From Pseudomonadota bacterium (GTDB lineage Bacteria > Pseudomonadota > Alphaproteobacteria > Acetobacterales > Acetobacteraceae), in NCBI GenBank assembly GCA_021846225.1, contig JAJZCG010000023.1:1-34957 (forward strand): 34,957 nucleotides of DNA, given 5' to 3'. Of the stretch, positions 5,507 through 34,957 are shown in pieces; within the stretch, counting starts at the first letter, position 1; each line of letters opens with the position of its first letter. The position numbers and the translations under genes are program-made. The notes beneath the pieces were generated by a model. It was not told where the DNA came from. It worked only from the letters and a program-made list of their open reading frames with translations, and ran no database searches.

Positions 5507-5528
5507 GCGCCGAGGGCGCTGATTTCAG

Positions 5529-5560
5529 CCGGGGGTATGGCGCCCGCCATACTTCCCCGG
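5529..5560. other. Strong stem-loop between thiolase and CoA-transferase genes
   Basis: The 120-bp gap contains CCGGGG + GTATGGC, a 4-base loop GCCC, then GCCATAC + TT + CCCCGG: a 13-bp stem with a two-base bulge. No U-run follows, so it is not a classical intrinsic terminator. It could stabilise the upstream mRNA or weakly attenuate read-through into the CoA-transferase genes. Function is inferred only from structure. Confidence 0.5.
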
Positions 5561-5626
5561 CCTGAGAGCCGGGCCGCTGCCAAAGCCGGCGAGCCGATGT
5601 GAAACCAAGAAAATCTGAGAGGGTGT

Positions 5627-21554: not shown

Positions 21555-21887
21555 TTAGCTGCGGGCCAGACGCCGGGCTGTGAGGAGGAGTATTTTCCGG
21601 TCTTCGGTGGAGCATGCACGATAGAGGCGCATGAGGGCCAGCTCATCACCTAAAAGTGAACCGGTTTCACCGGACACAAGATAGCCAAGGGAGGTGTTAA
21701 GCACCTTGGCGATACGTTCCATATTATCGCGGACTTGCCCGGCGCGATCAGTCTCCCATTGGGCGATGGCGGAACGGGAAACATTGAGTTTCGCGGCGAA
21801 TTCATCCTGCGTGAGGTTTGCGGCGAGGCGGAGGGCTCTGATGCGCGAGCCGACGGTTTCGGCGGGGGGGTGTTTTTTTGTTGGCAT
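21555..21887 (-). CDS. Short Xre-family phage repressor without peptidase domain
   Basis: The 110-residue product contains one helix-turn-helix of the Cro/CI type at residues 12-68 (RIRALRLAANLTQDEFAAKL, VSRSAIAQWETD, RIAKVLNTSLGYLVSG). After a short linker there is only a helical tail (ELALMRLYRACSTEDRKILLL), with no S24/LexA-like self-cleavage domain. It is divergent from the plus-strand operon, and the gap holds repeated TGTTAGA half-sites, so it most likely represses rightward transcription. Without a protease domain, RecA-driven induction by cleavage is not expected; an antirepressor or titration would be needed. ATG 21887 has no good ribosome-binding site, so a weak or leaderless start is possible. 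Confidence 0.85.
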   Translation of the reverse strand: MPTKKHPPAETVGSRIRALRLAANLTQDEFAAKLNVSRSAIAQWETDRAGQVRDNMERIAKVLNTSLGYLVSGETGSLLGDELALMRLYRACSTEDRKILLLTARRLARS

Positions 21888-21993: not shown

Positions 21994-22278
21994 ATGCCAA
22001 AGGCGAGGGTTTGGACGGCGGCGGCCGATGCGGTCATTCGGAACATGCGGGCTGGCGGGGCGACGTGGGCGCAGATCGGCCGCACGCTCGGGTTGTCGCG
22101 CAATACGGTGATAGAACGGGGGCGGCGGTTGTGCGCGCAGGCGCCAGTAAAGGTTGTGGCGCCTGTGGGCGGGGAGGTGGTCTCTGACGATCCGAACCGG
22201 GGGGCGCTGCGGGCGGGACATCCGCTGACCTGGGGACTGCTGACGAGTGAGCCGTATCCGCAGGGTGGCTGCCAGTGA
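21994..22278 (+). CDS. Small helix-turn-helix protein, GcrA-like N-terminus
   Basis: The 94-residue product starts with RVWTAAADAVIRNMRAGG-ATWAQIGRTLGLSRNTVIERGRRL (residues 5-48). This resembles the N-terminal helix-turn-helix of the cell-cycle regulator GcrA (W-T-x-x-x-G-x-S-x-x-x-I-A-x-x-LG-x-SRN-x-VI). The second half (GALRAGHPLTWGLLTSEPYP) is Pro/Gly-rich and looks like the tail of similar small proteins in alphaproteobacterial prophages. It could activate the late operon or act in DNA packaging. No GANTC methylation site, to which GcrA-type regulation is often tied, lies in the divergent control region. It overlaps the next gene by four bases (GTGA). Confidence 0.7.
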   Translation: MPKARVWTAAADAVIRNMRAGGATWAQIGRTLGLSRNTVIERGRRLCAQAPVKVVAPVGGEVVSDDPNRGALRAGHPLTWGLLTSEPYPQGGCQ

Positions 22279-22697
22279 GCGCGCTGAGCAAGGAGGAGGT
22301 TGTGGCGCGCTTGGAGGCGGCGGGGGCGACGCTGCTGGCGCTGCCTGCGGGCGGGCATTCAACGCGACTGCGGCAGATGAAATTTGATATCGTACACACG
22401 GCCCTGGAGGCATATGGGTGGGAATCCGCGGTGCTGCGCCCGCCGGTGCCGAGTCCGGCGGCGATTAGCGCCATGGATGAGGCGTTTGGCTGGCTCGCGA
22501 GGATCCCCGAGACCCGCTATGTGCTGCGGCGGATTTTAGGGGCGCGCGCGTTGGTGCATCCGATCACGCAACGGTATTTGTATCCGTGGCGGCGGCTGGG
22601 CGCGATGCTGGGGGCGGACCACAAATCAGTGCAGCGCTGGCATGGGCAGGGCGTTGAAATCCTGGCCGCGGCGCTGGCGGGGAGTGAAATAAAATAA
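22275..22697 (+). CDS. DUF6362-like phage protein, possible small terminase or DNA-binding protein
   Basis: The 140-residue product starts at a GTG overlapping the previous stop. Residues about 5-60 (EVVARLEAAGATLLALPAGG and the AYGWES segment) and RPPVPSPAAISAMDEAFGWLARI match my memory of DUF6362 proteins, found just before the large terminase in many alphaproteobacterial prophages. The C-terminus (YPWRRLGAMLGADHKSVQRWHGQGVEIL) looks like a helix-turn-helix. Because it precedes the large terminase, a small-terminase role that recognises phage DNA is the best guess, but it is inference. A transcription-factor role is the main alternative. Confidence 0.6.
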   Translation: MSALSKEEVVARLEAAGATLLALPAGGHSTRLRQMKFDIVHTALEAYGWESAVLRPPVPSPAAISAMDEAFGWLARIPETRYVLRRILGARALVHPITQRYLYPWRRLGAMLGADHKSVQRWHGQGVEILAAALAGSEIK

Positions 22698-22801
22698 TAA
22701 TTCTAACGTGGTGTTTTTTATACTTGCCCACATACCCCACCTTGGCATATACGTCTTGGCATACTGGTTCTTAACGCGCACCGAGAGGTACGGCAGAAAA
22801 T
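22698..22801. promoter_or_regulatory. AT-rich leader before the terminase with direct repeats
   Basis: This 104-bp gap is the longest in the late operon. It carries one half-site like the repressor operator (TTCTAACG, 22701-22708), a direct repeat CTTGGCATA at 22741-22749 and 22755-22763 (14-base period), and a possible promoter TTGCCC (22724-22729) with TATACG (22748-22753). It may be the late promoter and the target of the small regulator encoded upstream, or a packaging-recognition region. Confidence 0.4.
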
Positions 22802-24157
22802 ATGATGGCGGGTTTGCTTGGATTTTCCCGCCATGCAATGGCAGGCATGGCGCGGGTGCCGGCGCGGCATCACGAGCTTTTGATTGAAAAGCTGGATGAT
22901 GTCACCGAGGGCCGTTGTGACCGGCTGATGGTGCAGATGCCGCCGGGATCGGCGAAGTCTACTTATGGGTCTATATTATTTCCCGCGTATTTTTTGAGCC
23001 GGCACAAGACGGCGCAGATTATCGCGACGGCGCATACGGCTTCGCTAGCGGATTATTTTGGCAGGCATGTACGCAAGGCAATCGCGGAGCATGGCGAGTG
23101 GCTGGGGGTGACGCTGGCCAAGGAAAGCCGGGCCTCGGCGAAGTTCACGCTGGAGGAGGGGGGAGAGTATTTTCCGGCCGGAGTGCGCGGGCCCATTACC
23201 GGGCGGCGGGCGGATCTGATCATCATTGACGATCCTGTTAAATCCTGGGCGGAGGCGGAGAGCCGGGCGTCCAGGGATGCGCTGTATGATTGGTACCGGG
23301 CGGAACTTTCGGCACGGTTGAAGCCGGGAGGGCGTCTGGTGCTGATTATGACGCGTTGGCACGAAGATGATTTGGCGGGCCGCCTCATGGCGGGGGATCC
23401 GGCCTGGGAGAACTTACGGCTGCCAGCGATCGCGGAGAGCGGTGACGCGATGGGGCGGGCCGTGGGGGAGGTTTTGTGGCCTGAGTGGCAGGACGGCGCG
23501 GCGGTTTTGCGCCGGCGCCAAGAAGTTGGTGAGCGGGCGTTCTCGGCGATGTATCAACAGCGGCCGCGGCCGCCGGATGCTGCGTTGTTCAAGGTGGAGG
23601 CGATAAGGATTTTGGCGCAGGCGCCGGAGGTTTTGCGCACCGTGCGGGCGTGGGATTTGGCGGCTACGCTGCCAGGCGCGGGACGCAACCCGGATTATAC
23701 GGTTGGGTTGAAGCTCGGGCTGGTGGCGGGGGGGGATTTGGTGGTGCTGGATGTGATCAGATTCCAGGGCTCTCCGGCGCAGGTTGAGGCGCGAATTCAT
23801 GCCGCAGCGAAGGCCGATGGTGTGGGTACGATTTTGGCGTTGCCGCAAGATCCGGGGCAGGCGGGGGCGGCGCAGGTCGCCATGTTGAAGCGCAGCTTGA
23901 GCGGGTTTCAGGTGGTTTCATCGCCGGAGACGGGCGCGAAGGTGCTGCGCGCGATGCCAGCGGCGACGCAGGTGGATGGCGGGAAGGTGGCGTTGCTGGC
24001 GGCGCCGTGGAACGAGAATTTTATCAGTGAAATACGGGAGTTTCCTGACTCGGCAAAGGATGACCAGGTGGATGCGTTCGCGCGTGCGGTGAATACGCTG
24101 GTGACCACGAATTCGCAGGCTGCGCGGCGGGTGAATGTCGCGCTGCTGGGACGATGA
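22802..24157 (+). CDS. terL: Phage terminase, large subunit
   Basis: The 451-residue product joins an ATPase to a nuclease. Walker A is PPGSAKST at residues 47-54, Walker B is LIIIDD at 139-144, and TRWHEDDLAGRL (184-195) is the coupling region typical of this family. The RNase H-like nuclease follows from about residue 280 with acidic residues at Asp285 (RAWDLAAT), Asp350 (LPQDPGQAG) and Asp424 (DDQVDAFARAVNTL). It would drive DNA into the procapsid and cut concatemers. GAGAGG lies rather far (about 15 bases) from ATG 22802; a second ATG is at 22805. All catalytic residues look intact, so packaging is not visibly impaired. Confidence 0.93.
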   Translation: MMAGLLGFSRHAMAGMARVPARHHELLIEKLDDVTEGRCDRLMVQMPPGSAKSTYGSILFPAYFLSRHKTAQIIATAHTASLADYFGRHVRKAIAEHGEWLGVTLAKESRASAKFTLEEGGEYFPAGVRGPITGRRADLIIIDDPVKSWAEAESRASRDALYDWYRAELSARLKPGGRLVLIMTRWHEDDLAGRLMAGDPAWENLRLPAIAESGDAMGRAVGEVLWPEWQDGAAVLRRRQEVGERAFSAMYQQRPRPPDAALFKVEAIRILAQAPEVLRTVRAWDLAATLPGAGRNPDYTVGLKLGLVAGGDLVVLDVIRFQGSPAQVEARIHAAAKADGVGTILALPQDPGQAGAAQVAMLKRSLSGFQVVSSPETGAKVLRAMPAATQVDGGKVALLAAPWNENFISEIREFPDSAKDDQVDAFARAVNTLVTTNSQAARRVNVALLGR

Positions 24158-24181
24158 CCGCTAATTAAACTGTGAGGTTGC

Positions 24182-25576
24182 ATGTTCGAGACGATTTGCG
24201 ACACGGTGCCAATCGACACCGGCATGCCGGCGCGCGTGGCGCGGCTGGAGATTTTGCGGCGGGTGCTGGAGGGGACGATTTATGATAATTTGCCCTACCA
24301 ATTCCATGAGGAGCGCAACGGCGCGGGGGAATATATTCCGTTGCGCCAGCGCAGGCCCTCGGTACGCTACGGGTTGGCGCGCATTGTGGTGGAGGATTCC
24401 GTTGCGTTGCTGTTCAGCGCTGGGCATTTTCCCGCGGTGGATGCCGCGGATGCGGCGCTGGCGCGTGTGCTGGACGATGTTATTGCGGAAAGTTGCCTGA
24501 ACGAGGTGATGATTGATGCCGCGATACGGGGATCCGTTGGCTCAGTTGCCATTTTGCTGAGGGTATTGCGGGGGCGCGTGTTTTTCTCGGTGCTGGAGAG
24601 CCAGTATCTGACGCCGGCTTGGGATGTGCAGGCGCCTGATACGTTGAGCCGGGTTGTTGAAAAATACAAGGTAAACGGCGCTGATTTGGTGGCGCAGGGC
24701 TATGCCGGTTGTGATTCGGCCGCCATGTACTGGTTCCAGCGGATATGGGACAGCGAGGCGGAGACCTGGTATTTACCGTGGCCGGTGAATGATGCTTCCG
24801 CAGGGCCGGTGCGCGATGAAGTGCGCAGCGTGCGCCATGGACTTGGCTTTGTGCCGATGGTGTGGATACGCAACTTGCCCGGAGGCGATGGGATTGATGG
24901 CGCGTGCACCTTCCGGGCCGCGGTTGATAGCAATATCGAGATTGATTACCAGCTGAGCCAGGCAGGGCGGGGGTTGAAATATAGCTCCGATCCGACGTTG
25001 CTGATCAAGGAGCCAGCGACCAGTGATTCGGAAATTGTGAAAGGTGCGGGGAATGCACTTGTGGTTTCTGAAAAGGGTGACGCCAAGATGCTTGAGATTG
25101 GCGGGACGGCATGTGAGGCGGTGATTTCATATGTCAGGACGTTGCGCGAATTCGCGCTGGAGAGTGTGCATGGCAACCGGGCGAATGCGGATAGGCTGAC
25201 GGCCGCGCAATCTGGCAAGGCGCTGGAGCTGATGAATCAGGGGTTGCTCTGGCTCGCGGATAATTTGAGAATTTCCTGTGGTAATGGCGGTATTTTGCCG
25301 TTGATGAAGATGATTGTGCGGGCCTCGCAGGTGTTTCCGCTGACGGTGATGGGGGAGGTCGTGCCGCCGCTTGATTCGACGCAGCGGCTGCGCCTGCGGT
25401 GGCCGCGATGGTATCCGCTTTCAGCCGATGACCGGTTGAAGGAGGCACAGGCCGTGGCGACCTTGACGAATGCCGGGCAGCTCTCACGCGAGACGGCGGT
25501 AAAAACCATTGCGGCATCGCATAGTATTGCTGATGTTGAAGCTGAATTGAACGCGATTGATCAGGATGCTCCATGA
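24182..25576 (+). CDS. Phage portal protein
   Basis: The 464-residue protein sits directly after the large terminase and just before the scaffold and capsid genes, the conserved place of the portal, and its length fits. Visible pieces are RRVLEGTIYDNLPYQFHEER, ARIVVEDSVALLFS and, in the middle, NPSxx-like VDSNIEIDYQLSQAGRGL and LREFALESVHG. A helical segment around residues 300-340 (EFALESVH, RLTAAQSGKALELM) could be the stem/crown helix. The portal forms the ring through which DNA enters and to which the tail is joined. No close family name (DUF1073, SPP1-type) could be fixed, so the call rests mainly on position and length. Confidence 0.75.
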   Translation: MFETICDTVPIDTGMPARVARLEILRRVLEGTIYDNLPYQFHEERNGAGEYIPLRQRRPSVRYGLARIVVEDSVALLFSAGHFPAVDAADAALARVLDDVIAESCLNEVMIDAAIRGSVGSVAILLRVLRGRVFFSVLESQYLTPAWDVQAPDTLSRVVEKYKVNGADLVAQGYAGCDSAAMYWFQRIWDSEAETWYLPWPVNDASAGPVRDEVRSVRHGLGFVPMVWIRNLPGGDGIDGACTFRAAVDSNIEIDYQLSQAGRGLKYSSDPTLLIKEPATSDSEIVKGAGNALVVSEKGDAKMLEIGGTACEAVISYVRTLREFALESVHGNRANADRLTAAQSGKALELMNQGLLWLADNLRISCGNGGILPLMKMIVRASQVFPLTVMGEVVPPLDSTQRLRLRWPRWYPLSADDRLKEAQAVATLTNAGQLSRETAVKTIAASHSIADVEAELNAIDQDAP

Positions 25577-25962
25577 CAGATGAGATGAATGACGCAGAGG
25601 ACTGGCAGGCACGGGCGCAGAGTGCCGAGGCGGCTCTGAGCCGTGTACAGGCGGAGGCGGAGGCGAGGTTGATTCGCGCTGAGCTGAAGGCGGAGGCGTT
25701 GCGCGCCGGGATGGTTGATTTGGATGGCTTGAAGTTGCTGGATGTGGCGGACCTGCGACTGACGGAGGTGGGCGATGTGGCTGATGCGCCGGCGGTTCTG
25801 GCCAGGCTGAAGCGAGCAAAACCATGGCTGTTTGGGATGGCGATGTCATCTTCATCGGCGGCGAATCCGCCTCGCCCGGAACCGCCGCGCACGCGCCATG
25901 CCAATGATCTGAGCCATGAGGAATGGGTGGCGGCGCGCGCCGCGCTGCTGCGCCGCCGGTAA
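25573..25962 (+). CDS. Probable phage scaffolding protein
   Basis: The 129-residue protein overlaps the portal stop by four bases. Residues 8-45 are a charged, Ala/Glu-rich helix (WQARAQSAEAALSRVQAEAE), and the centre (AGMVDLDGLKLLDVADLRL, VLARLKRAKPWLFG) is a block repeatedly seen in small proteins before major capsid genes. The C-terminus is Pro/Ser-rich and basic. It most likely assembles the procapsid and is then lost. No separate maturation protease is seen between portal and capsid, so scaffold removal may not need one. Confidence 0.7.
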   Translation: MTDEMNDAEDWQARAQSAEAALSRVQAEAEARLIRAELKAEALRAGMVDLDGLKLLDVADLRLTEVGDVADAPAVLARLKRAKPWLFGMAMSSSSAANPPRPEPPRTRHANDLSHEEWVAARAALLRRR

Positions 25963-26055
25963 GCCGAGGCTGGGTATTTTATCTGCTGGGAATCCGCCGG
26001 GCACGACCCGCCGGATGTTGATGAATCACGTTTTAACATAAAGGAATCTTTGCCG

Positions 26056-27378
26056 ATGGGCATTCAAAATTTTCCAGCCGCGCTGCAACCGATTATCCAG
26101 CAGGGGTTTTTGGAGCGAGAGTTTGAGACTGCGCTGAAGTCGCGGTTGGGCTACCGGTTGATCGCGGACAGGGAAGAGTTTTCAGTCGGGATTGGTGAGA
26201 CGCTGACCAAGACGCGCGCAGGGTTGAAGCCGAGTGTGACAGTGCCGCTGGCGGCCTCGACCAATACGAATTTGGACAATGGTTTGACCTCCACGAACTG
26301 GGGGGTTGAGCAGTATACCATCGCGTTGAATTTTTATGCCGCGACGCAGGATCTGAACATGGTGACGAGCCGTGTGGGCATTGCCAGCCAGTTTTTGCAG
26401 AATGCGGCGACGAATGGCGAGCAGGCCGCGCGAAGCCTGGACGAGTTGGCGCGCAATGCGCTGTTTGCGCCGTATTTTGGCGGTAACACGCGGGTGACGG
26501 CCACGCTGGCGGCGGCGGCGCCGAGTGTTGAGGTTGACGATATCCGCGGTTTTCAAACGGCATTTTCAAACGGAGTGCAGCAGGTGGTGTCAGCTACCTA
26601 TCCGCTGACTGTGACGGTTGGGTTGAATTTGTATACCGTTGTGGGGGTGATGCCCGATGCCGTTAATGTATCGAGCGCGCCGAACGGTATTTCAGGGCAG
26701 TTGCAGTTCTCGGGCAATGTGAGCATTGCCGATGGCACCACGGGCAATGCCGTGCAGGCGGCGACGGCGAGTTCCATCGTGCGCCCGGCGGGCCGGAGCA
26801 CGACCGCAGGCTTGCAGGCCACCGATACGCTGAGCATGGGCAATTTGCTGGATGCCGTGGCGCTGCTGCGCCGTAATGCGGTGCCGTTGGTGGATGGCGT
26901 CTACAATTGTTATCTTGATCCGGTCTCGGCGCGGCAGCTGTTCTCCGACCCTGATTTCAAGCAGCTTTTCCAGGGGGCGACGTCGTCTAACCCGGTTTTC
27001 CGCCAGGGTATGGTGAGCGATTTTCTCGGGCTGCGGTTCATCACCACCACTGAAGCGTATGTGCAGAATCATCCTTCGATTCAGAGCCTGTATGTGCGGC
27101 GGCCGATTGTTTGCGGCCAGGGGGCGCTTATCGAAGGCGATTTCGCGGGTATGGCGGCCGATGATGTGGCACCGAAGGATAGCCTGGTGAACGTGATTGA
27201 CAATGTGGCGATGGTGACGCGCGAGCCGATCGACCGGCTGCAGCAGATTATCGCGCAGAGCTGGTATTGGATCGGCGGGTTTTGCGCGCCATCGGACACC
27301 ACGACGACACCGACCACCGTGCCGACCGCGACCAATGCGAACTACAAGCGTGCGGTGATGATCGAGCACATTGGTTAA
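26056..27378 (+). CDS. Major capsid protein
   Basis: The 440-residue product follows an AAGGAA ribosome-binding site and starts at ATG 26056 (TTG 26050 is less likely). The N-terminus (FPAALQPIIQQGFLEREFETALKSRLGY) is a helical arm. Further on come TKTRAGLKPSVTVPLAAS, TSTNWGVEQYTIALNFYAATQDLN and an apparent insertion of beta-rich, Gly/Ser/Thr-rich sequence around residues 170-255 (ADGTTGNAVQAATASS). The C-terminus is Thr/Pro-rich (TTTTPTTVPTA) and ends in YKRAVMIEHIG. Size, position and abundance-type codons suit a HK97-fold major capsid protein, but the fold was not tested. A 93-bp gap before it may hold a ribosome-binding boost. Confidence 0.8.
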   Translation: MGIQNFPAALQPIIQQGFLEREFETALKSRLGYRLIADREEFSVGIGETLTKTRAGLKPSVTVPLAASTNTNLDNGLTSTNWGVEQYTIALNFYAATQDLNMVTSRVGIASQFLQNAATNGEQAARSLDELARNALFAPYFGGNTRVTATLAAAAPSVEVDDIRGFQTAFSNGVQQVVSATYPLTVTVGLNLYTVVGVMPDAVNVSSAPNGISGQLQFSGNVSIADGTTGNAVQAATASSIVRPAGRSTTAGLQATDTLSMGNLLDAVALLRRNAVPLVDGVYNCYLDPVSARQLFSDPDFKQLFQGATSSNPVFRQGMVSDFLGLRFITTTEAYVQNHPSIQSLYVRRPIVCGQGALIEGDFAGMAADDVAPKDSLVNVIDNVAMVTREPIDRLQQIIAQSWYWIGGFCAPSDTTTTPTTVPTATNANYKRAVMIEHIG

Positions 27379-27390
27379 GGAGGGACGGTA

Positions 27391-27699
27391 ATGTCAACAG
27401 GTTCGACGCAACCATTCCGGCCGGCGGGGACGGTCAGCGTTATGGCCACGGCCAGGGCCGTCCAGATTCCGCTGGCAGGTGGAGGGAATGCCGTGCTGAT
27501 CTATAACGCAGGGGCAACGACGGTATTTTTCCGTCTGGGAGGGGCAACCGGGCTGACGGCGACGCTGAACGATACGCCCGTGCCACCGGGGAGCAGAATG
27601 CTCGTGGGCGCGGGGCCGTTTGTTAGTTATGCCGCCGTGATGGTCACTTCGGGCTCCGCGCTTGTGTATTTCACGCTGGGCGATGGGGACACATACTGA
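27391..27699 (+). CDS. Small beta-rich head protein, possible capsid decoration
   Basis: The 102-residue product is preceded by a strong AAGGAGGG site nine bases before ATG 27391. It is rich in Thr, Val, Gly and Ala, with alternating beta-type patterns (AVLIYNAGATTVFFRLGG, AAVMVTSGSALVYFTLGD). No family was recognised. Its place just after the major capsid gene suggests a decoration or minor head protein; a head-tail joining role is also possible. Confidence 0.55.
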   Translation: MSTGSTQPFRPAGTVSVMATARAVQIPLAGGGNAVLIYNAGATTVFFRLGGATGLTATLNDTPVPPGSRMLVGAGPFVSYAAVMVTSGSALVYFTLGDGDTY

Positions 27700-27700
27700 G

Positions 27701-28096
27701 ATGACCGGCAGTGTTGCGCCATCTTTCACCGATGGGCAGAAGGCGGATATCCGCAGGTTTTGTGGATATCCGGCCTATGGCGCCGGAGCGGCGGGATTCA
27801 ACGCCTGGAGGTTTTTTCAGGCGTATGGAACGCTGGAGTACCGGATGAACAATCTGGCGCCGGCGGAAGTTGCCGTGACGCTGCAGTATATCTCAACCCT
27901 GGCCACGCTTGAGGCGACGGTGCCCAGGACATCGGAAAATCTGGATACGGAGAGCGCTGCCGCGTGGACGCATAATGCGAGCGAGCTGCGCGACAGGACC
28001 AATTTGTTCGATAACTGGCGCCGCCGCCTGTGTGGTTTTCTGGGTGTGCCGCCAGGGCCCGCGCTGGAGCAGGCCGGCCTCACTCTGGTGGTATGA
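27701..28096 (+). CDS. Phage head-tail connector or adaptor protein
   Basis: The 131-residue product starts at ATG 27701, one base after the preceding stop. Its N-terminal half is helical (FTDGQKADIRRFCGYPAYG), and it shows a repeating aromatic/Arg pattern near FQAYGTLEYRMNNL. The C-terminal half has NASELRDRTNLFDNWRRRLCGFLG. Proteins of this size and place between capsid and tail-completion genes form the head-tail connector ring. Call based on context. Confidence 0.5.
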   Translation: MTGSVAPSFTDGQKADIRRFCGYPAYGAGAAGFNAWRFFQAYGTLEYRMNNLAPAEVAVTLQYISTLATLEATVPRTSENLDTESAAAWTHNASELRDRTNLFDNWRRRLCGFLGVPPGPALEQAGLTLVV

Positions 28097-28097
28097 G

Positions 28098-28742
28098 ATG
28101 GATGGTGTGCGATTGGCCGACCGGCTTGCCTATGGGGCCGGGTGCGCGGCGCGGCGGACAGGGTTTCTGCACGACGCGTACCGGCCGGAAGGGCCTGAGG
28201 CGCCGCTGGGGCTGGATAAGCGGTTTTTAAGGCTATGTGTGGCCTTTGTGCTGCCTGGTGGTTCAGTCAGCGCGCCTAGCGGCCTGGGCATGCCATTCCG
28301 CCAGGCATGGGCGGATTGGAGTTACTTGCGGGCGGGGGATTACCTGGCAGGGCCGGAAGGCACCGTATTTGTGGCCGCGATTGAGCCGCCGAAGCCGATG
28401 CTGGTGGTGATGACGAATGCGGTTGTGAGTCTGGTGCGGCCTGAGGCGCCGGTGTTCGCCGGGCTGAATGGATATGGCGCGGTGCTGCCGGGCACGCAAA
28501 GGCCGCTGCTGGCGGGGTTTCCGGCAAGCCTGCTGGTGGGGGGCATTGGCGACAGGACCAGATCCGGGCTGCCAGATAATACGAAAGTGCCGGGTTTCAG
28601 CGCCCTGTTGCCGGTGGTGGCGGATGCTCAGCCGCACGTGGCGGATATTTTGAGCACGCAAAGCGGTGAGCGGTTTATTGTAACGGCTGTCGAACGGCTG
28701 GATGCGGTGTGGCGATTCTCGCTTGTGCAGGAGGTGGGGTGA
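28098..28742 (+). CDS. Hypothetical neck or tail-joining protein
   Basis: The 214-residue product begins at ATG 28098, one base past the previous stop. It contains a beta-rich centre (AFVLPGGSVSAPSGLG, AGPEGTVFVAAIEPPKPMLVVMTN) and the block GDRTRSGLPDNTKVPGFSALLPV. The C-terminal FIVTAVERLDAVWRFSLVQEVG resembles small tail-joining proteins. It overlaps the next start by one base (TGATG). No family was recognised. Position between connector and tail-completion genes suggests the neck. Confidence 0.5.
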   Translation: MDGVRLADRLAYGAGCAARRTGFLHDAYRPEGPEAPLGLDKRFLRLCVAFVLPGGSVSAPSGLGMPFRQAWADWSYLRAGDYLAGPEGTVFVAAIEPPKPMLVVMTNAVVSLVRPEAPVFAGLNGYGAVLPGTQRPLLAGFPASLLVGGIGDRTRSGLPDNTKVPGFSALLPVVADAQPHVADILSTQSGERFIVTAVERLDAVWRFSLVQEVG

Positions 28743-29572
28743 TGGCTGACCAGGCGGATGTGGAGAGCGCGCTGGCGGCGATCGTTGCCAATGCGGTGTA
28801 TCCGGATGGTGTGAGCGTGCCCAGCGTGACGGGGAATGTTTGCCGGATATACCGGGGATTTCCAAATACCCCCGCGTTGGATGCGGATCTGGCCGTGGGC
28901 GTTGTTAATGTAACGGTGATGGCAAGCCCAGGGGCGGTGAAGAATGTGACACGCTACCCGCGGCAGTGGGTGAGTGTGACGCCGGTGGTGCAGGTGTTGA
29001 GTGTGGCGGTGACGGGGCAGGCCGCGGTATTTTCAGGCACCTGCGCGGTTGGGCAACTGGCAGGCATAAAAGTGAATGGTGCCGTATATCCCTATGCGGT
29101 GCAGGCAAATGACAGCCCGGCGACGGTGGCGAGCAATATCGCGGCGCTGTTGCGCGCTGCCGGCTGGGTGGTTGATTATGCCGGTGCGGCGGTTGGGGTG
29201 CCCGGCGCCGAGACGTTTGCGGCGCGTGTTGTAAGCGGCGCCGGCTCGTTGCAGGAAATTAAGCGCCAGCAACAGGATTTCAAGATTACATTATGGTGTC
29301 CTGATCCGGCGTCGCGGGATGCGGTGGCCCCGGTGATCGACGAGGCGCTGGCGGATTTGAAGTTCATACCGCTGGCGGATGGCTCGTATGCGCGGTTGAT
29401 TTTTGCAGGTAGCGTGGCGCAGGACAATGCAGGGGATGCGACACTTTACCGGCGTGATCTGACGTATGGCGTTGAGTATCCGACGACGTTGGCGCAGGTG
29501 ACGCCGGCGATGCTGTTTGGTGTCACCACTGTGACTGTGAACGCCACATTTGTTGAAAATATTCAATCTTAA
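28742..29572 (+). CDS. Tail completion/terminator-like protein with an inserted beta domain
   Basis: The 276-residue product starts at ATG 28742, sharing one base with the previous stop. The first 70 residues (VESALAAIVANAVYPDG, VCRIYRGFPN, VTVMASPGAVKNVTRYPRQW) and the last 70 (DFKITLWCPDPASRDAVAPVIDEALADLKFI) look like two halves of one tail-terminator fold. Between them, residues about 80-175 are a Gly/Val/Ala-rich beta block (FSGTCAVGQLAGIKVNG) that could be an inserted domain. It should cap the tail tube and join it to the head. The fold is inferred from position and size. Confidence 0.55.
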   Translation: MADQADVESALAAIVANAVYPDGVSVPSVTGNVCRIYRGFPNTPALDADLAVGVVNVTVMASPGAVKNVTRYPRQWVSVTPVVQVLSVAVTGQAAVFSGTCAVGQLAGIKVNGAVYPYAVQANDSPATVASNIAALLRAAGWVVDYAGAAVGVPGAETFAARVVSGAGSLQEIKRQQQDFKITLWCPDPASRDAVAPVIDEALADLKFIPLADGSYARLIFAGSVAQDNAGDATLYRRDLTYGVEYPTTLAQVTPAMLFGVTTVTVNATFVENIQS

Positions 29573-29583
29573 AGGAAATTGTC

Positions 29584-29724
29584 ATGCTCTTTCACCTCGT
29601 GGTGTTGAAGCCGTTTGCCGGTTACAGCCGTGGCGACCTGATTACGGATGCCGCAGCGGTTGAAGATATTCTGTCTGGACCGCAGAAGAGTTTTGTTGTC
29701 CGCATTATGCAGAAGGAAGGTTGA
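29584..29724 (+). CDS. Small tail gene of 46 residues between tail completion and sheath
   Basis: This short frame has a perfect AAGGAA site seven bases before ATG 29584 and stops three bases before the sheath ATG. The product (MLFHLVVLKPFAGYSRGD at the N-terminus) ends in a beta strand, FVVRIMQKEG. In Mu the corresponding small gene (gp38 position) also lies between tail completion and sheath. Good ribosome-binding site and tight packing make it real; its function is unknown. Confidence 0.7.
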   Translation: MLFHLVVLKPFAGYSRGDLITDAAAVEDILSGPQKSFVVRIMQKEG

Positions 29725-29727
29725 ACC

Positions 29728-31281
29728 ATGCCTGTTGTGCAGCAAGGTGCGATAAATACCACGGCGTTGATTGTCCCCGATTTATATGTGCAGATTGTGC
29801 CGCCGCAGACGCTGTTGCTGAACGGTGTGCCGACGGATGTTCTGGGCGTGGTGGGTACGGCGAGTTGGGGGCCGGTGGGGGAACCGGCAATTATTGGCAA
29901 TATGGGAGACTATGCCGCGAGCTTTGGCGCGGTGATGCCTAGAAAATACGATATGGGAACCCAGGTTGCCACAGCCGTGCAGCAGGGGGCGGGAAATTTT
30001 GTATGTGTGCGGGTTACCGACGGCACGGATGTTGCCGCTTCGTTGAATGTGCTTGGCGCCCTCCAGTTCACGGCTTTGTACACGGGAAGCCTTGGCTCGC
30101 AGTTGACCCTCACATTCGCGGCCGGATCAGCTGCCGGCAGCTGGCGGCTTAGCGTGGCCCTGCCGGGGCTTAACCCGGAAATTTTTGATAATATCAAAGG
30201 GGTTGGAGCGCAGTTCTGGCTTAATCTCGCCAATGCGGTCAACAAGGGTAACGGAGCGTTGCGGGGGGCTTCGCAACTGGTGGCTGCCACTGTGCTGGGG
30301 GCGGCAACGGCGCCGCTGGCAGGGGTGTATCTGTTCAACTCTGGCTCGCCGGGAAGCGACGGCGCAAATAACGTGAGCGCGGCTACGCTGGTGGGGAATG
30401 ATTCACTGCCGCGGCAAGGAATGTATGCGCTGCGCGCGCAAGGTTGCTCGCTGGCACTTCTCGCGGATGCGGATGATCCCACGCAGTGGAGTGTGCAGAC
30501 GGCGTTTGGTCTTGCCGAGAGCGTGTATATGATTTTGACCGGGCCGGCGGGTGATAACATCGCGAATGCTGTTACAACAAAGGCGCAGGCTGGTGTTGAC
30601 AGCTATGCGGCGAAGCTGATGTTTGGCGATTGGGTTTATTGGTCTGATCAGGCGAATGCGCTCATCCGGCTGGTATCGCCGCAAGGGTTCGTGGCCGGCC
30701 GGTTGGCTAATTTGTCGCCTGAGCAGTCATCGTTGAACAAACCGCTGTACGGCGTGGTCGGTACGCAAAAATCCGGCCAGCCGGGCGGCGGCACAGCGAC
30801 GACCTACGCGGCGGCCGACTTGGCGGCGTTGTTGGGTGCGGGCATCGATGTGATTGCGAATCCGCAGCCGGGCGGGGCCTATTGGGGGGTGCGTGGCGGG
30901 CACAACTCATCCTCGAACGCGGCGACGAATGGCGATAATTACACGCGGCTGACGAACTATATTTCGAGTACGCTGGTGAGCGGCATGGGCGCGTATGTCG
31001 GCCAACTGGTGAATACCTCGTTGTTCCAGAATATACGCTCCACGTTACTGGCGTTTTTGAATGGACTGCTCGCGCAGGGTATGCTGGGGCGGACCGGGAG
31101 TGCCTCGCCGTTTACGGTTGTGTGCGATGTCAGCAATAATCCGCCGGCCAGGACGGCGTTGGGATATGTGCAGGCGGATGTGCAGGTACAGTACCAAGCG
31201 ATCAATGAGAAATTTATCGTAAATGTTCAGGGCGGGCAGACGGTGCAGGTGAGTGTGCAGACCATTCCTTCGAACATTTAA
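29728..31281 (+). CDS. Contractile tail sheath protein
   Basis: The 517-residue product follows AAGGAAGG by ten bases. N-terminal blocks include LIVPDLYVQIVPPQ, TDVLGVVGTASWGPVGEPAIIGN and MGDYAASFGAVMPRKYDMGT, and an anchored VRVTDGTD strand. The C-terminal part (ISSTLVSGMGAYVGQLVNTS, ARTALGYVQADVQVQYQAINEKFIVNVQGG) is the beta-strand arm that links neighbouring subunits. This is the tail sheath (gpFI/subtilisin-like domain) family. It forms the outer cylinder that contracts to push the tube. Presence of sheath plus tube defines the element as a myovirus-type. Confidence 0.9.
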   Translation: MPVVQQGAINTTALIVPDLYVQIVPPQTLLLNGVPTDVLGVVGTASWGPVGEPAIIGNMGDYAASFGAVMPRKYDMGTQVATAVQQGAGNFVCVRVTDGTDVAASLNVLGALQFTALYTGSLGSQLTLTFAAGSAAGSWRLSVALPGLNPEIFDNIKGVGAQFWLNLANAVNKGNGALRGASQLVAATVLGAATAPLAGVYLFNSGSPGSDGANNVSAATLVGNDSLPRQGMYALRAQGCSLALLADADDPTQWSVQTAFGLAESVYMILTGPAGDNIANAVTTKAQAGVDSYAAKLMFGDWVYWSDQANALIRLVSPQGFVAGRLANLSPEQSSLNKPLYGVVGTQKSGQPGGGTATTYAAADLAALLGAGIDVIANPQPGGAYWGVRGGHNSSSNAATNGDNYTRLTNYISSTLVSGMGAYVGQLVNTSLFQNIRSTLLAFLNGLLAQGMLGRTGSASPFTVVCDVSNNPPARTALGYVQADVQVQYQAINEKFIVNVQGGQTVQVSVQTIPSNI

Positions 31282-31296: not shown

Positions 31297-31725
31297 ATGC
31301 CGTATAATACATTTTCGGTCGGCAGTGATTGCCAGGTTGTGGTGATGGGGCCGTTTGGCCGTGTGGATCTGGCGCATGTGACGGGATTTGAAGCGCAGCA
31401 GTTGACAGTGGCTGTGCGGGTGGACCGGATGGATGGCGTGCAACTGGGGGCGGAACTGCCGAAGGGGTGGGCGGGAAGTTTTTCGCTGGATCGTGGATCA
31501 TCCGCAGTGGATGATTTCATCGCGCAGATCGAGGCCGCGTATTTGGCTGGTCAGTCGATAAATGCCGGGACGCTTTACCAGTATATCCATGAGCCGGATG
31601 GATCGGTTTCGACGTATCAGTTCAACGGTGCGGTTTTCAAACTTGCGTTGGCGGGAACGTATAAGGGAGATTCGCCGGTGACGCAGCGGCTTGAATTTTA
31701 TGCGTCTGGGCGCACGAGGGTATGA
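31297..31725 (+). CDS. Tail tube protein
   Basis: The 142-residue product has the length of small myovirus tube proteins. Blocks include FSVGSDCQVVVMGPFGRVDL, a FEAQQLTVAVRVDRMDG strand, SFSLDRGSSAVDDFIAQIEAAY and the C-terminal FNGAVFKLALAGTYKGDSPVTQRLEFYASGR. Hexameric rings of such proteins form the inner tail tube inside the sheath. Directly follows the sheath gene and overlaps the chaperone start by four bases. The fold is supported by position and pattern rather than by a database hit. Confidence 0.82.
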   Translation: MPYNTFSVGSDCQVVVMGPFGRVDLAHVTGFEAQQLTVAVRVDRMDGVQLGAELPKGWAGSFSLDRGSSAVDDFIAQIEAAYLAGQSINAGTLYQYIHEPDGSVSTYQFNGAVFKLALAGTYKGDSPVTQRLEFYASGRTRV

Positions 31726-32027
31726 TGAGCGAAATCGTGACGGATAACGCCGGACGGAGGATTCAACTGCGGCGGATCGGGGTGGTGGAGCAGATGCGCT
31801 TATTCAAGGCGCTGGGGCCGGAGCTTTCAGCCAATTCAGCATATATGCATGGTGCGTTGATCGGGGCGGCGGTTGCGATGATCGATGATGTACCCATGCC
31901 TTTTCCAACGAACGAAGCCGGGTTGGAGGCGGCGCTGGAGCGGATAGGGCTGGATGCCATGCCGGTGGTTGCCAAGGCCATTGAGCAGCAGTCTGACCAG
32001 CAACTTGCGGCCGCGGCGGGAAACTAG
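31722..32027 (+). CDS. Tail assembly chaperone, short (zero-frame) product
   Basis: The 101-residue product starts in the four-base overlap with the tube gene. It shows RRIQLRRIGVVEQMRLFKAL, a helix SAYMHGALIGAAVAMIDD and ends in KAIEQQSDQQLAAAAGN, followed by TAG. In many phages the gene between tube and tape measure encodes a chaperone that is extended by a programmed frameshift (lambda G/GT, P2 E/E', Mu 41/41'). Here the same seems true: the last two codons with the preceding base form a GGGAAAC slippery heptamer. The chaperone coats the tape measure during tail assembly. Confidence 0.8.
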   Translation: MMSEIVTDNAGRRIQLRRIGVVEQMRLFKALGPELSANSAYMHGALIGAAVAMIDDVPMPFPTNEAGLEAALERIGLDAMPVVAKAIEQQSDQQLAAAAGN

Positions 32028-32194
32028 CGCGGCACCCAGCGCTGACGGATTGTATGTATCTGGTTGGCTGCGGGGTGCCTTATGACGTGGCGTTTAACAT
32101 GGATGAGGTGGAACGCCTGGCGCATGTCGTGGTTTGTGGCGAGCTTTCCGGGCTGACATATGATTGGAAAAAATTACGTTGGGTACAACCGTAA
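31722..32194 (+). CDS. Tail assembly chaperone, -1 frameshift extended product
   Basis: A slip of -1 on GGGAAAC at 32018-32024 leads out of the zero frame into an open frame of 56 codons that ends at TAA 32192-32194, giving a 157-residue product. The extension reads LARHPALTDCMYLVGCGVP and later DEVERLAHVVVCGELSG, ending in YDWKKLRWVQP. The D-W-x-x-x-x-W ending resembles the tail of T-type extensions in other phages. The frame has no ribosome-binding site of its own before ATG 32054, which supports synthesis by frameshift. The extension overlaps the next gene by 35 bases. Confidence 0.78.
32018..32024 (+). other. -1 ribosomal frameshift site GGGAAAC
   Basis: The heptamer follows the X-XXY-YYZ rule in the reading frame of the chaperone (G GGA AAC), and the zero-frame stop TAG is the next codon. 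The -1 frame is GGG AAA CTA. A 5-bp stem, AGCGC (32026-32030) with GCGCT (32039-32043), starts only one base after the heptamer and may act as the stimulator, though the spacing is shorter than usual. Confidence 0.82.
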
Positions 32195-33146
32195 TCTTAT
32201 GCCGGCGAGCCAACTACCTGGGACTTTTAGAAACTTGCTCAGGATGGAGAAGGCTATGATTGTATCTACCGATGATACGCGACCAAATGTGGCGAGGTAT
32301 GGTTTGCCCGTTGCGGACGTGGCTGCTGTTGCCAAGCAATTTTTGGTAAGAGGTGCAAAGCGATATTCTGGCATGGCGGGTAAATGGCATTTGCCGGGAC
32401 GTGCGGGCGTGAACCTGAAGCTGCACAGGATTTTTTATGACGATAAGGCGGCTAGACGACTCCAGAGCGTGCCCTTGGCGCCAAAGCGTAGTTTTATATT
32501 TCGCGCCGGAGCGAAAGAAGCCCCCCGGATTCATGGGGAGTTGAAAAATACGTTTTGGCGTGCGGGTTCGGCGGGGAGGGAATTCCTAATCCCGGGGCTT
32601 CGCACGGGTTGGGGGAAGCCATTGTCATGGCTGGGCGGAGGACATGTGCTGCCGGGACGGATGAGGCATTTGGCGGGCCGATTTGCGTTGTTGAGTCGCA
32701 ATGAAAAGACCGCTATAAGGCACTTACATATAAAACCGCCAGGTATAGGGCAGTTAAATATAAAACCGCCAGGCCGGGAGGGAAATGTACGATCCTTCGC
32801 GCCGATGCGCGTGGTTGCGCCGTCTCCGGTGAGTGGTCAGGACAGCAGGCTTGGACGTTCTGTGCATGAGACAAATATACGCATGCGTTCGGCGGGGCAG
32901 CCACGCTTGCAAAGTCAGGAGTTGGCGTCAGTTGATCGTGAGATTAAAAAAAATGACGAAGTTTCTGAGCGTGGGATCAAGGAGGTTCACGGTAGCGTGG
33001 TGCAAGATCCGCATAAGCGGGTGGCTGATATGTCTCGCGCCATCAACGATTATTTTGTACATCAGGCGCGGCTGCCGCCTTCGGGTGCGATGGCGTTTGA
33101 TCCGCGGCTGACACCAGCCTGGGCCGGTTTGAAGCTCCCTGTTTGA
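32160..33146 (+). CDS. Basic protein in the tape-measure position
   Basis: The frame encodes up to 328 residues; a later ATG at 32256 with GGAGAAGG upstream would give 296. It sits where the tape measure belongs, between chaperone and gp43-like gene, but is far shorter and has none of the usual long hydrophobic helices. It is rich in Arg and Lys, with many Gly/Pro, and has a duplicated ten-residue unit (HIKPPGIGQL / NIKPPGREGN). The C-terminus (INDYFVHQARLPPSGAMAFDPRLTPAWAGL) has the look of a tail end. It may be a shortened or replaced tape measure, or an unrelated insertion. Codon use is more AT-rich than in the head genes. Confidence 0.5.
   Translation: MIGKNYVGYNRNLMPASQLPGTFRNLLRMEKAMIVSTDDTRPNVARYGLPVADVAAVAKQFLVRGAKRYSGMAGKWHLPGRAGVNLKLHRIFYDDKAARRLQSVPLAPKRSFIFRAGAKEAPRIHGELKNTFWRAGSAGREFLIPGLRTGWGKPLSWLGGGHVLPGRMRHLAGRFALLSRNEKTAIRHLHIKPPGIGQLNIKPPGREGNVRSFAPMRVVAPSPVSGQDSRLGRSVHETNIRMRSAGQPRLQSQELASVDREIKKNDEVSERGIKEVHGSVVQDPHKRVADMSRAINDYFVHQARLPPSGAMAFDPRLTPAWAGLKLPV
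32724..32783 (+). repeat. Imperfect tandem duplication of 30 bases
   Basis: Units 32724-32753 and 32754-32783 share TTA-ATATAAAACCGCCAGG with one substitution (C/A) in the first 20 bases and diverge in the last ten. The shared core ATATAAAACCGCCAGG is exact at 32728-32743 and 32758-32773. In frame it gives two ten-residue units with IKPPG in the protein at the tape-measure position. Confidence 0.85.
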
Positions 33147-33153
33147 GGTTATC

Positions 33154-33852
33154 ATGAGTCATGTGATTTTGACGCTGGGCGGCGTGGTATTCCGCGACAT
33201 GGAAGTGCCTGAGAAGATCTCCTTTGGCGGACGGCAGAATTTGGCTGTCCAGCAGTTGATAGGGGGAGGCAGAATCGTTCAGGCGCTTGGCCTGGATGAT
33301 GGAAAAATTTCTTTTGCAGGAATTTTTTCGGGCAATGATGCGGTTGCGCGGGCGCAGATGCTCGACGCCGCACGGGCGCTGGGAGCCTCTTTGCCGCTGG
33401 TATGGGATGGATTTTTTTATACGGTGATCATCGATGAGTTTTGTGCGGAATATCGTAAAACAAACCTGATCCCGTTTTCAGTGACATGTCTGGTTGTAAG
33501 TGATCCACTGGCATCGCTGGCGGCAATTGCAGCGCCGGTTGCGAATCTGATCAGCAATGATCTGGCGGCTGCTGGTGCACTGAGCGGCCAGGCGGGTGTT
33601 TCATTGGACGGGATCAGCGCCGGAGGAATCGCCGGGGTGACAGCCGTACAGAGTGCGTTGCAGGGCGTTGTCGGCACACAAGGGGGGGCGCTGAACGGCG
33701 CGGTTGCCCAAGTGAATGGCGCAGCGGATGCGCAGGGAGGTGTGATGGCGATTACTCAGCTTAATGTCGCGTCTTCGACCTTGGCTGCGGCTGCGGCGGT
33801 GAGCGGATATGTAGGCCGCGCCGCGGCAAATTTGGCGGGGACGCTGTTATGA
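33154..33852 (+). CDS. Tail protein of the DNA-circularisation/Mu gp43-like type
   Basis: The 232-residue product starts at ATG 33154, seven bases after the previous stop. The first 120 residues resemble the small baseplate proteins that follow the tape measure: VPEKISFGGRQNLAVQQLIGG, VQALGLDDGKISFAGIFSG, ARAQMLDAARALGASLPLVWDG and FYTVIIDEF. The rest is Ala/Gly/Val-rich without charge. In Mu-like tails the equivalent protein (gp43, DNA circularisation N-terminal domain) joins the hub. The start overlaps none, but its stop overlaps the LysM gene by four bases. Confidence 0.65.
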   Translation: MSHVILTLGGVVFRDMEVPEKISFGGRQNLAVQQLIGGGRIVQALGLDDGKISFAGIFSGNDAVARAQMLDAARALGASLPLVWDGFFYTVIIDEFCAEYRKTNLIPFSVTCLVVSDPLASLAAIAAPVANLISNDLAAAGALSGQAGVSLDGISAGGIAGVTAVQSALQGVVGTQGGALNGAVAQVNGAADAQGGVMAITQLNVASSTLAAAAAVSGYVGRAAANLAGTLL

Positions 33853-34037
33853 ACAACCGGATTATCACTGTTGCAGGTGGAAACCTGTTTGCGGTTGCGG
33901 CCAAATACCTGGGAGATGCGACGCAGTGGATTCGTATCGCGCAGCAAAACAGGATCACTGATCCGGTTCTGCAGGGTGTAAACACGCTGACTATACCGCC
34001 GGTTGATGCGACCGCGGGAGGTGGCGTTGGCAGTTGA
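33849..34037 (+). CDS. LysM-type tail protein X
   Basis: The 62-residue product starts in a four-base ATGA overlap with the gp43-like gene. It contains one LysM-like repeat: RIITVAGGNLFAVAAKYLGDATQWIRIAQQNRITDP, then LTIPP. P2-type gpX proteins of this size bind the tail tip or peptidoglycan and join the baseplate hub to the cell-wall-facing surface. The stop lies 11 bases inside the hub gene. Confidence 0.8.
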   Translation: MNNRIITVAGGNLFAVAAKYLGDATQWIRIAQQNRITDPVLQGVNTLTIPPVDATAGGGVGS

Positions 34038-34854
34038 ACAGCCACAACTGCGGGTTAGCATCGGGGGTGTTGTTGTACCTGGGGCAACTGAAATGGAAAT
34101 TGAATCGGTCGCATATTTTGCGGCCGACCGGTTTCGGATTAATTTTATATTCGGTGTTACCGCATCTACCACAGTTTCGTATTTTCTGAGCTTGAGTCTT
34201 GAGACGCTCACGATAGATGTGGCTCTGAGCGGGTTTGGATACACCACGCTGCTTGTGGGGCAGGTTGATAACATTCAGATAGATATATTGCAAAACAGGG
34301 CGATATTGACGGGGCGGGATCTGGCAGCGAGGCTGATTGATACAGAAGTATCAGAGACATTTGTTAATCAGACTGCCAGCCAGATTGCGGTGACGATTGC
34401 ACAGCGGCACCAGTTGACGCCGAATGTAATGGCAACAAAGACTTTGACGGGACAGTACTATCAGCTGGATCATGCGCGCACGGTTTTGGCGGTGAATTCA
34501 CGTGGGACCACTGAGTGGAATCTGCTCTCTACGCTGGCGAGTGCAGAGAATTTTCAACTATCTGTTTTTGGTACAGTCCTGAATTTCGGACCTCTCACAC
34601 AGGGGGTTCCGTTGTTTCTGACGGCGCAAGATTTTATTGCGGTGACATTTGACATGGCGGCAAACCTGCCAGGTAGAGCTGTTGTGAAGTCTTGGAATTG
34701 CCGGAACAAAACGATGATTATGCAGAGTAACGGCACAGGTCTTATGACAACGTTGGTGAGGCCGAATTTGACGCAGGAGCAGGCACAGGCCCTCGCTACG
34801 AGCCATTTAGTGACACTTGGGCAACATGCGCTAGGTCACGCACTCATAAATTGA
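34027..34854 (+). pseudogene. Baseplate hub / late control D-like protein, 3' end interrupted by an insertion sequence
   Basis: The preferred start is TTG 34027, five bases after GGGAGG; ATG 34006 is an alternative without a good site. The N-terminus (VEQPQLRVSIGGVVVPGATEMEIESVAYFAADRF) and the segment DNIQIDILQNRAILTGRDLAARLIDTE are typical hub domain 1. TNLLSTLASAENFQLSV-like sequence and TLVRPNLTQEQAQALATSHLVTLGQHA follow. Members usually continue some 60 or more residues beyond this point, with an oligosaccharide-binding-fold-like end. Here the protein turns into unrelated LGHALIN and stops at 34854 close to the start of the IS element. The hub is therefore truncated in this copy; without it no baseplate would form. 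Confidence 0.72.
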
Positions 34855-34957
34855 TTCCCCGCTTTAGCGAATTGTGATTCAAGCTCCGTGGAGGTGTTTG
34901 ATGTCGATTCGCCGGTACGAGTTGTCTGATTTTGAGTGGTCGATTATCGCACCGCTT
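34834..34957 (+). mobile_element. Left end of an IS5-family insertion sequence
   Basis: The frame of the hub is lost at about 34830, where CTAG occurs, and the next 67 bases lead into a typical IS leader: AATTGTGATTCAAGC, a GGAGG site, then a transposase start. IS427-type elements insert at TNA/CTAG targets, so the boundary is placed after CTA at 34831-34833. The right end and terminal repeats are outside the window, so the exact end is an estimate. Confidence 0.7.
34901..34957 (+). CDS. IS5-family transposase, first 19 codons
   Basis: ATG 34901 follows GGAGG by eight bases. The 19 visible residues (MSIRRYELSDFEWSIIAPL) match the N-terminus of IS5/IS402-like (DUF4096) transposases, in which L-x-D-x-W-x-x-I-x-P-L is highly conserved. 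The DDE catalytic part is beyond the window. It is the only transposition gene seen and belongs to the IS, not to the phage. Confidence 0.85.
   Translation, partial: MSIRRYELSDFEWSIIAPL

Follow-up and report, generated by a model that had tools for sequence, protein, structure and literature searches.

Effectors related to tape-measure proteins (TMPs) have been described in actinobacterial contractile injection systems, namely Tme (PMC11126660) and Sle1 (PMC13277306). In the accounts given of them, the effector lies at the C-terminus, and the TMP-like part, made of coiled coil or membrane segments, is N-terminal or central. Here, we looked at the tape-measure slot, lying between the tail chaperone gene and a gp43-like gene, of a phage-like cluster in the genus Acidocella (Acetobacteraceae). 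The window analysed, 34,957 nucleotides, is the entire contig C110 of the 2.69-Mb draft genome G000, and its slot holds an open frame of 328 residues, P328 (32160 to 33146, + strand). With moderate confidence, we propose that the tape-measure gene became a carrier of toxin cargo with a TMP-derived C-terminal loading tag, P328 being a TMP remnant in a vertically kept contractile particle. As described for Tme and Sle1, a TMP relative would serve as particle cargo with an exchangeable effector domain, and one Sle1-type protein also has an immunity partner. In contrast to these proteins, the order is reversed in the slot family: the TMP tag is C-terminal and spans about 40 residues, the domain is N-terminal, and the partner gene is found upstream. 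Head and terminase genes are also part of the cluster. By sequence, a TMP-derived region in a putative contractile-particle effector was found for the slot family only. The hallmarks of Tme and Sle1 (N-terminal coiled coil, C-terminal effector, DUF4157 association) were not found in six tagged proteins scanned with Pfam. TMP-related effectors were known already; the reversed polarity, the head-encoding cluster and the short C-terminal TMP tag set the slot family apart from them.

Other described systems share some of these traits. The MuF toxins of temperate phages (PMC5576092) likewise put toxins on a phage structural protein and have small partner genes but, as presented there, they carry an N-terminal head or portal module and a small open reading frame (ORF) downstream, whereas in the slot family the tag comes from a tape measure, is C-terminal and belongs to a cluster that is maintained vertically. 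No MuF domain was found in the tagged proteins scanned (Pfam, PHROGs). RcGTA, in the relevant part of its description, is also a domesticated alphaproteobacterial phage-like cluster with a very short TMP; that TMP is helical and trimeric and belongs to a non-contractile tail, whereas P328 has no hydrophobic helix and stands in a contractile-tail cluster (PMC7296036). Phages that share the gene order of the Acidocella cluster carry an ordinary TMP in the slot, of 999 residues (Brevibacillus phage Emery) or 742 residues (Komagataeibacter phage phiKX1), and three phage-like loci in related genomes have slot TMPs of 650 (L079), 733 and 693 residues. That of L079 shares the C-terminal motif of P328, which, unlike these proteins, has neither the N-terminus nor the ruler. 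PBSX-like defective phages are vertically kept contractile particles with head and lysis genes in which a long TMP is retained. Finally, phage-like contigs common to Acetobacteraceae genomes were reported from Sphagnum and suspected to be defective or co-opted prophages; they may be the same element as the Acidocella cluster, although the passages on them contain no tape-measure or toxin analysis of the kind given here (PMC12142844). These contigs aside, a literature search gave no description of the Acidocella cluster or of a C-terminal TMP tag, and the term tape measure does not occur in the available portion of the polymorphic-toxin survey (PMC3482391).

An earlier note, made from the letters of the window alone, had pointed to P328 as a short, basic, proline-rich protein in the place of the tape measure, with a ten-residue duplication and no long hydrophobic helices. 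Most of this was borne out. P328 counts 328 residues against 650 to 999 for the TMPs of related phages, and its composition (K+R 16.8%, D+E 7.3%, G 9.8%, P 7.6%) gives a net charge of +31. The duplication corresponds to two tandem 30-bp copies (32714 to 32773, + strand; 32714-32743 and 32744-32773) that are 90% identical; in an alignment, the nearest relative, G002, has one copy only. The highest 19-residue hydropathy is 0.97, against 1.57-2.11 in five phage-type TMPs, and with a length of 328 residues P328 is therefore not a long helical ruler with hydrophobic segments. The proline content is only mildly high, since proline makes up 7.8% of one phage-type TMP and 11-20% of seven slot proteins from sister genera. 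Taken as a whole, P328 had no relative among 50,697 phage records, nor in IMG/VR by peptide patterns, and no family matched in Pfam or PHROGs.

The ancestry of P328 was read from its end. Slot proteins of sister genera have a TMP-like start (MIDAYxIGI...), a proline-rich middle, and a TMP-like end (...LDG...RPPxGxTGFDPR...). The last 40 or so residues of P328, with the motif RLPPSGxxxFDPRLTPAWAGLKxP (33006 to 33143, + strand), match the C-termini of these short proteins and, more weakly, the C-terminus of one true TMP, and are probably homologous to TMP C-termini. A hidden Markov model (HMM) of the sister-genus C-termini gave 27.7 bits for P328 and the same 27.7 bits for the 650-residue TMP of L079, against 14.4 bits for the best and 6.6 for the next of 2600 shuffled sequences; none of the other four TMPs rose above this level. 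With an HMM of the Acidocella tag, L079 reached 16.6 bits against 8.4 for the best shuffle, and the other four TMPs were at noise. A profile-profile comparison of the C-termini gave 98.2%. The N-terminal HMM of the sister genera gave 40.9 bits for L079 and -0.2 for P328. Since the C-terminal models match and the N-terminal one does not, P328 appears as a TMP remnant at its C-terminus only, and these comparisons support the view that its last 40 or so residues derive from a TMP whose ruler and N-terminus are gone. Among the options raised before (replaced ruler, new adaptor, decayed tape measure), decay is thus supported for this stretch and not for the remainder of the protein. A simple internal deletion, for which a relative with a long TMP and two matching ends would have spoken, was dropped because the N-terminus of P328 has no match to a TMP N-terminus, the C-terminal end alone matching that of L079. 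The homologue search at the same locus, which had been suggested, did bring up intermediates with both TMP ends around a proline-rich middle in the sister genera; P328 shares with them the C-terminal end only.

The two parts of P328 also differ in constraint. In comparisons of the window with G002 or G009, used for all ratios of nonsynonymous to synonymous substitution rates (dN/dS) given here, the tag had values of 0.26 and 0.21 and the remainder 0.49 and 0.76, indicating that the C-terminal tail is constrained and the rest much less so. When the N-terminal part was compared with the 148 distinct tagged ORFs found across all loci scanned (identical ones counted once), it matched only G002 (64%), G009 (29%, 2e-7) and, weakly, L283 (0.002). 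The start may be at 32160, 32244 or 32256, and is most likely at 32256: the ATG at 32160 lies within the -1 extension of the chaperone gene, G002 has in-frame stops across the stretch matching the 5' part, and a Shine-Dalgarno-like ggagaagg, read by eye, stands just 5' of the ATG at 32256. A codon-usage gene caller selected only 32805-33146, which points to atypical codon usage in the 5' part. P328 had no toxin-domain family match, and no tox5/6/7 match was found among its Acidocella relatives. As only about 60-130 bp separate the chaperone extension or stop from the possible starts, there is no room for a partner gene before P328. It is most likely an empty carrier, with no recognisable toxin domain or partner gene, and probably an empty or decayed one in a recently broken cluster.

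We then compared the slot across relatives. It was filled in eight of the 20 scorable Acidocella genomes (G000, G002, G004, G006, G009, G010, G031, G032), always by a short ORF of 255-336 residues apart from the shortest, of 244. In the other 12 (G005, G007, G013, G014, G015, G017, G021, G023, G026, G034, G035, G037), it was empty, the 169-212 bp between the chaperone and gp43-like genes corresponding to the chaperone extension alone. G001 and G030 were left unscored, as their contigs end at the slot. Among the best 80 of 200 relatives in a scan of named loci, which overlap with the other genomes counted, 67 had a measurable slot and 13 did not; 11 of the 67 were empty, 52 measured 920-1879 bp, not enough to encode 650 residues, and four were longer. 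These four, inspected singly, also code for short proteins (302-426 residues) whose ends are TMP-like, with additional small genes after them. Two culturable strains, Acidocella aromatica DSM 27026 and A. facilis ATCC 35904, are among the carriers of a cluster whose slot is empty. The cluster showed no long tape measure. Tape-measure length, whose comparison had also been proposed, goes from 650-999 residues in phage-type loci to short or empty slots. A relocated tape measure was considered and set aside: the ten downstream proteins of G034 that were scanned are baseplate-, fibre- or spike-like or belong to no family (one of 714 residues), none being TMP-like. The earlier estimate of a tail of about 49 nm is unsupported, because P328 shows no sign of a helical ruler and the slot is empty in 12 of the 20 scorable genomes. 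In other genera, the slot may also contain runs of small genes (L162, 6257-11560; L160, 12906-15197; L128, 4264-5716; L085, 1105-1710), some of which recur in a single locus and begin like membrane anchors; these runs look like orphan immunity arrays.

The tag was found outside the slot as well. With its Acidocella HMM, 26 of 38 Acidocella genomes gave a match at E <1e-9, two of these being short remnants, with weaker matches to slot proteins of other genera and to the TMP of L079 (E 0.0018). In 11 of the 12 empty-slot genomes, the cluster has a tagged gene at its 3' end, beside recX; none was found in the twelfth, G005, which is fragmented, its contig breaking off 2.7 kb after the gp43-like gene. 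The eight filled-slot genomes have no second tagged copy better than E 0.06. Tagged genes or remnants also lie away from the cluster in G013, G015 (two), G026 and G036 (three). In IMG/VR contigs, we counted 66 distinct tagged ORFs, 62 of which were scored directly before a gp43-like gene. In G036, which is 96% complete, one of the three tagged genes (L201, L202, L203) stands beside its cognate partner family.

What these relatives put in the slot goes beyond the earlier note: toxin-like domains with immunity-like partners. Among the 148 tagged ORFs, 37 have a TMP N-terminus, 21 fall into three recurrent N-terminal domain families placed ahead of the tag (11, 5 and 5 members), and 90 have neither. 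The 21 comprise 17 scored in the slot, two (L243 and L248) with a gp43-like gene in the locus but past the distance cut, and two orphan genes (L198 and L203). The family with 11 members is found in the slot and also in an orphan gene of G015. One of the families is similar to the lysozyme region of hub proteins from phages (phrog_27932, 8.9e-9), and by tblastn it matched Tenacibaculum phage pT24 at 8e-17, with a second member at 2e-9. Six tagged proteins had no Pfam match bar one below the cut-off, two domains searched against PDB sequences gave nothing for one and a designed protein at E 0.12 for the other, and the third domain family had no match in phage records. Each domain family has its own family of partners, secreted or membrane-anchored proteins encoded upstream of the domain-bearing ORFs; the partner gene is doubled in tandem at L243, L299 and L262. 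Domain and partner were paired in 8/11, 3/5 and 5/5 cases (16/21), with no crossed pairs, and the five unpaired domain ORFs are all at, or within 300 bp of, contig ends. None of the 127 tagged ORFs lacking these domains has a partner family beside it. Some of the loci counted here had also served to train the partner HMMs; the independent cases are L203, L249, L251, L265 and L245. Another upstream family is common to L200 and L204 (36.5% identity over 63 residues). At L264, the second upstream slot gene (5000-5968) is of the phosphodiester glycosidase (NAGPA) type (PF09992, 1.3e-11), and its counterpart in L234 (5425-6393) is 76% identical.

The comparison bearing on exchange of the cassette took in 66 of the 101 typed loci (42 distinct). 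The tubes of L246 and L228 are 100% identical and their gp43-like proteins 96%, yet their domain families differ; conversely, L234 and L264 have the same domain family, while their gp43-like proteins are merely 43% identical. This mismatch between flanks and domains indicates that the cassette has been exchanged. The chaperones of L234, L264, L245, L246 and L228 tend to track the domain family over the flanks (64.7% against 59.4% identity; 14 loci; permutation p 0.02, uncorrected for six genes), which is only suggestive of chaperone and cargo travelling together. Altogether, the slot and tag family has, judging from its sequences, a constant trafficking part, exchangeable domains and cognate partners, as in polymorphic toxins, with toxicity and immunity being putative.

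We give somewhat better than even chances to the wider proposal that a domesticated Acetobacteraceae contractile phage, still with head and terminase, turned its TMP into an exchangeable toxin-immunity cassette, the ruler end of about 40 residues serving as a portable loading tag in the slot, at the 3' end and on orphan toxins, and no classical ruler setting tail length. The sequences support a course in which an ancestral TMP lost its ruler, a stage retained in the sister genera with both ends around a proline-rich middle, and Acidocella lost the N-terminal end too, keeping the C-terminal 40 or so residues. The tag could dock on the hub or baseplate initiator inside the tube, and the retained frameshifted chaperone could help to load the tagged protein into the tail tube. 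The slot would act as a toxin-immunity cassette, its observed gene order placing the N-terminal toxin-like domain behind a cognate immunity-like gene, and further tagged genes are located at the cluster's 3' end or in other parts of the genome. The contractile particle would inject the tagged protein into rival bacteria, and the partner gene would protect kin. If this is true, the steps from phage ruler to payload are present in living relatives: a long TMP, its two ends joined by a linker, a single end, and that end as a tag on toxin-like domains. It would also point to the loading of a contractile particle by way of a short C-terminal tag and raise the question of how a contractile tail gets its length once the ruler gene is gone. 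The cluster is common in acidophile and peat Acetobacteraceae, and copies of it are filed as viral contigs in IMG/VR.

Several observations weigh against this proposal. P328 itself carries no toxin-like domain, and it is among the 90 of 148 tagged ORFs with neither such a domain nor a TMP N-terminus. The majority of the domains of tagged proteins belong to no known family, and the AlphaFold models of two domain families are poor (pLDDT 47 and 42). The Acidocella tag rose above shuffles for just one of five phage-type TMPs, and a longer module (A4) was found at E 0.001 in just 10 of 249 family genomes, five of the ten being Acidocella. G036 has its three tagged genes, yet no sheath or gp43-like gene was found there, and 14 of 38 Acidocella genomes have no sheath, six of the 14 being at least 90% complete. 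An alternative is plain decay, with the TMP eroding once a measured tail was no longer needed, P328 as a dying relic, and empty slots as the end point. The nearly unconstrained N-terminal part (dN/dS 0.49-0.76), the stops in the 5' part of G002, the 12 empty slots out of 20 and the broken look of the window's own cluster all agree with it. We nevertheless find decay unlikely, as the C-terminal tag is constrained (0.21-0.26), a tagged gene sits beside recX in 11 of 12 empty-slot genomes, and relatives have paired domain and partner genes.

The particle might instead be a gene transfer agent or a similar DNA carrier, in which the tagged domains are cell-wall entry enzymes and the upstream genes keep the enzyme from harming its producer. 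In favour of this, purifying selection acts on terminase, portal and capsid, one domain family resembles tail lysozymes, and, according to the part of the RcGTA description that deals with its tail, RcGTA may hold a peptidase in the tail channel (PMC7296036). At least three unrelated domain families with their own partners, some tandem-duplicated, fit polymorphic toxins better than a fixed entry enzyme, and we regard a DNA carrier as improbable to the same degree as decay. It appears very unlikely that P328 goes on acting as a ruler in an unusual form, with an extended disordered chain replacing the helix. Slot position and the retained tag would suit such a ruler, and, reckoned from the rise per residue, an extended chain of about 330-400 residues could span roughly the same as a helical TMP of 650-740. 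The variable length of the slot ORFs (255-336 residues apart from one of 244), the 12 genomes with no slot gene out of 20 and the loss of the TMP N-terminus speak against such a ruler.

The toxin-carrier proposal places these genes in a vertically kept particle, and in Acidocella the cluster is kept at one fixed chromosomal site. The same three host genes (phosphatase, N-formylglutamate amidohydrolase, 844-residue glycosyltransferase) lie upstream in all six long Acidocella contigs, and a potassium transporter lies farther upstream in five of the six, the sixth (G007) having been followed for less than that distance. At the 3' end, recX and rpmI adjoin the cluster in 15 of 23 loci tested; the other eight are one contig end, two stretches from the opposite side of the cluster and five orphan-gene loci. 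Values of dN/dS were 0.02-0.16 for terminase, portal (one pair each), capsid, sheath, tube, chaperone and gp43-like genes, indicating purifying selection on the structural genes; they were 0.27 and 0.14 for the hub-like gene, and 0.48 and 0.08 for the short LysM gene. The sheath is present in 24 of 38 Acidocella genomes, two with a divergent copy only, and the gp43-like gene has relatives in 45 of 147 genomes. Among the ORFs scanned, the genes annotated from terminase to endolysin included no integrase or replication family. In G007, four additional genes, left unassigned, lie between portal and scaffold-like gene (joined stretch L052 and L047, 19911-22822). G014 was considered as a decayed copy, since the codon-based caller missed many of its genes, but tblastn recovers sheath, tube, gp43-like and hub genes nearly full length, and decay is not claimed.

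In the window, the cluster spans from about 21.5 kb to the contig end, in the order HTH_3, DUF6362, terminase, portal, scaffold-like, capsid, head-tail, sheath, tube, frameshifted chaperone, P328, gp43-like, LysM-like and hub-like. The neighbours of P328 named earlier were found again, three of them (sheath, gp43-like and hub-like) by profile, and tube and chaperone by position. The DUF6362 to head-tail genes occupy 22275 to 29724 (+ strand), followed on the same strand by the tail sheath (29728 to 31281; phrog_23, 5e-45) and the tail tube (31297 to 31725), named by position and conservation, its match phrog_12993 being a PHROG of function unknown. The tail chaperone (31725 to 32194, + strand; phrog_20383, also of unknown function) runs to 32027 in frame 0 and ends in the -1 slippery sequence GGGAAAC (32018-32024), the -1 frame continuing to 32194. 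The slippery sequence is GGGAAAC in 28 of 31 loci and AAAAAAC in three, the -1 extension is open in all 31, and both are kept even in the 12 empty-slot loci. Downstream of P328 are the gp43-like gene, DNA-circularisation-like by position (33154 to 33852; phrog_21362, 1.4e-38), the LysM-like tail gene (33849 to 34037, by profile) and the gpD-like hub gene (34003 to 34854, by profile), all on the + strand, the last being shortened relative to G002 and G009. At 34855 to 34957 (+ strand) begins what we take to be an insertion sequence, from its transposase N-terminus, and the cluster is apparently broken there, inside the hub gene. The rest of it is on contig C78 (L218), which begins mid-gene and has one downstream gene split (118 + 222 residues) and another shortened (527 against about 718 residues); baseplate J was not found in the assembly of this genome. 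With the caution that a draft assembly calls for, the window copy is probably dead; it looks ordinary, and the unusual system lies behind it.

Divergent from the cluster, a small HTH_3 (Cro/CI-type) regulator gene (21555 to 21887, - strand) was dropped as a host marker, since it is possibly part of the cluster; it may be a controller of the particle. It is 85-95% identical across the six Acidocella contigs compared.
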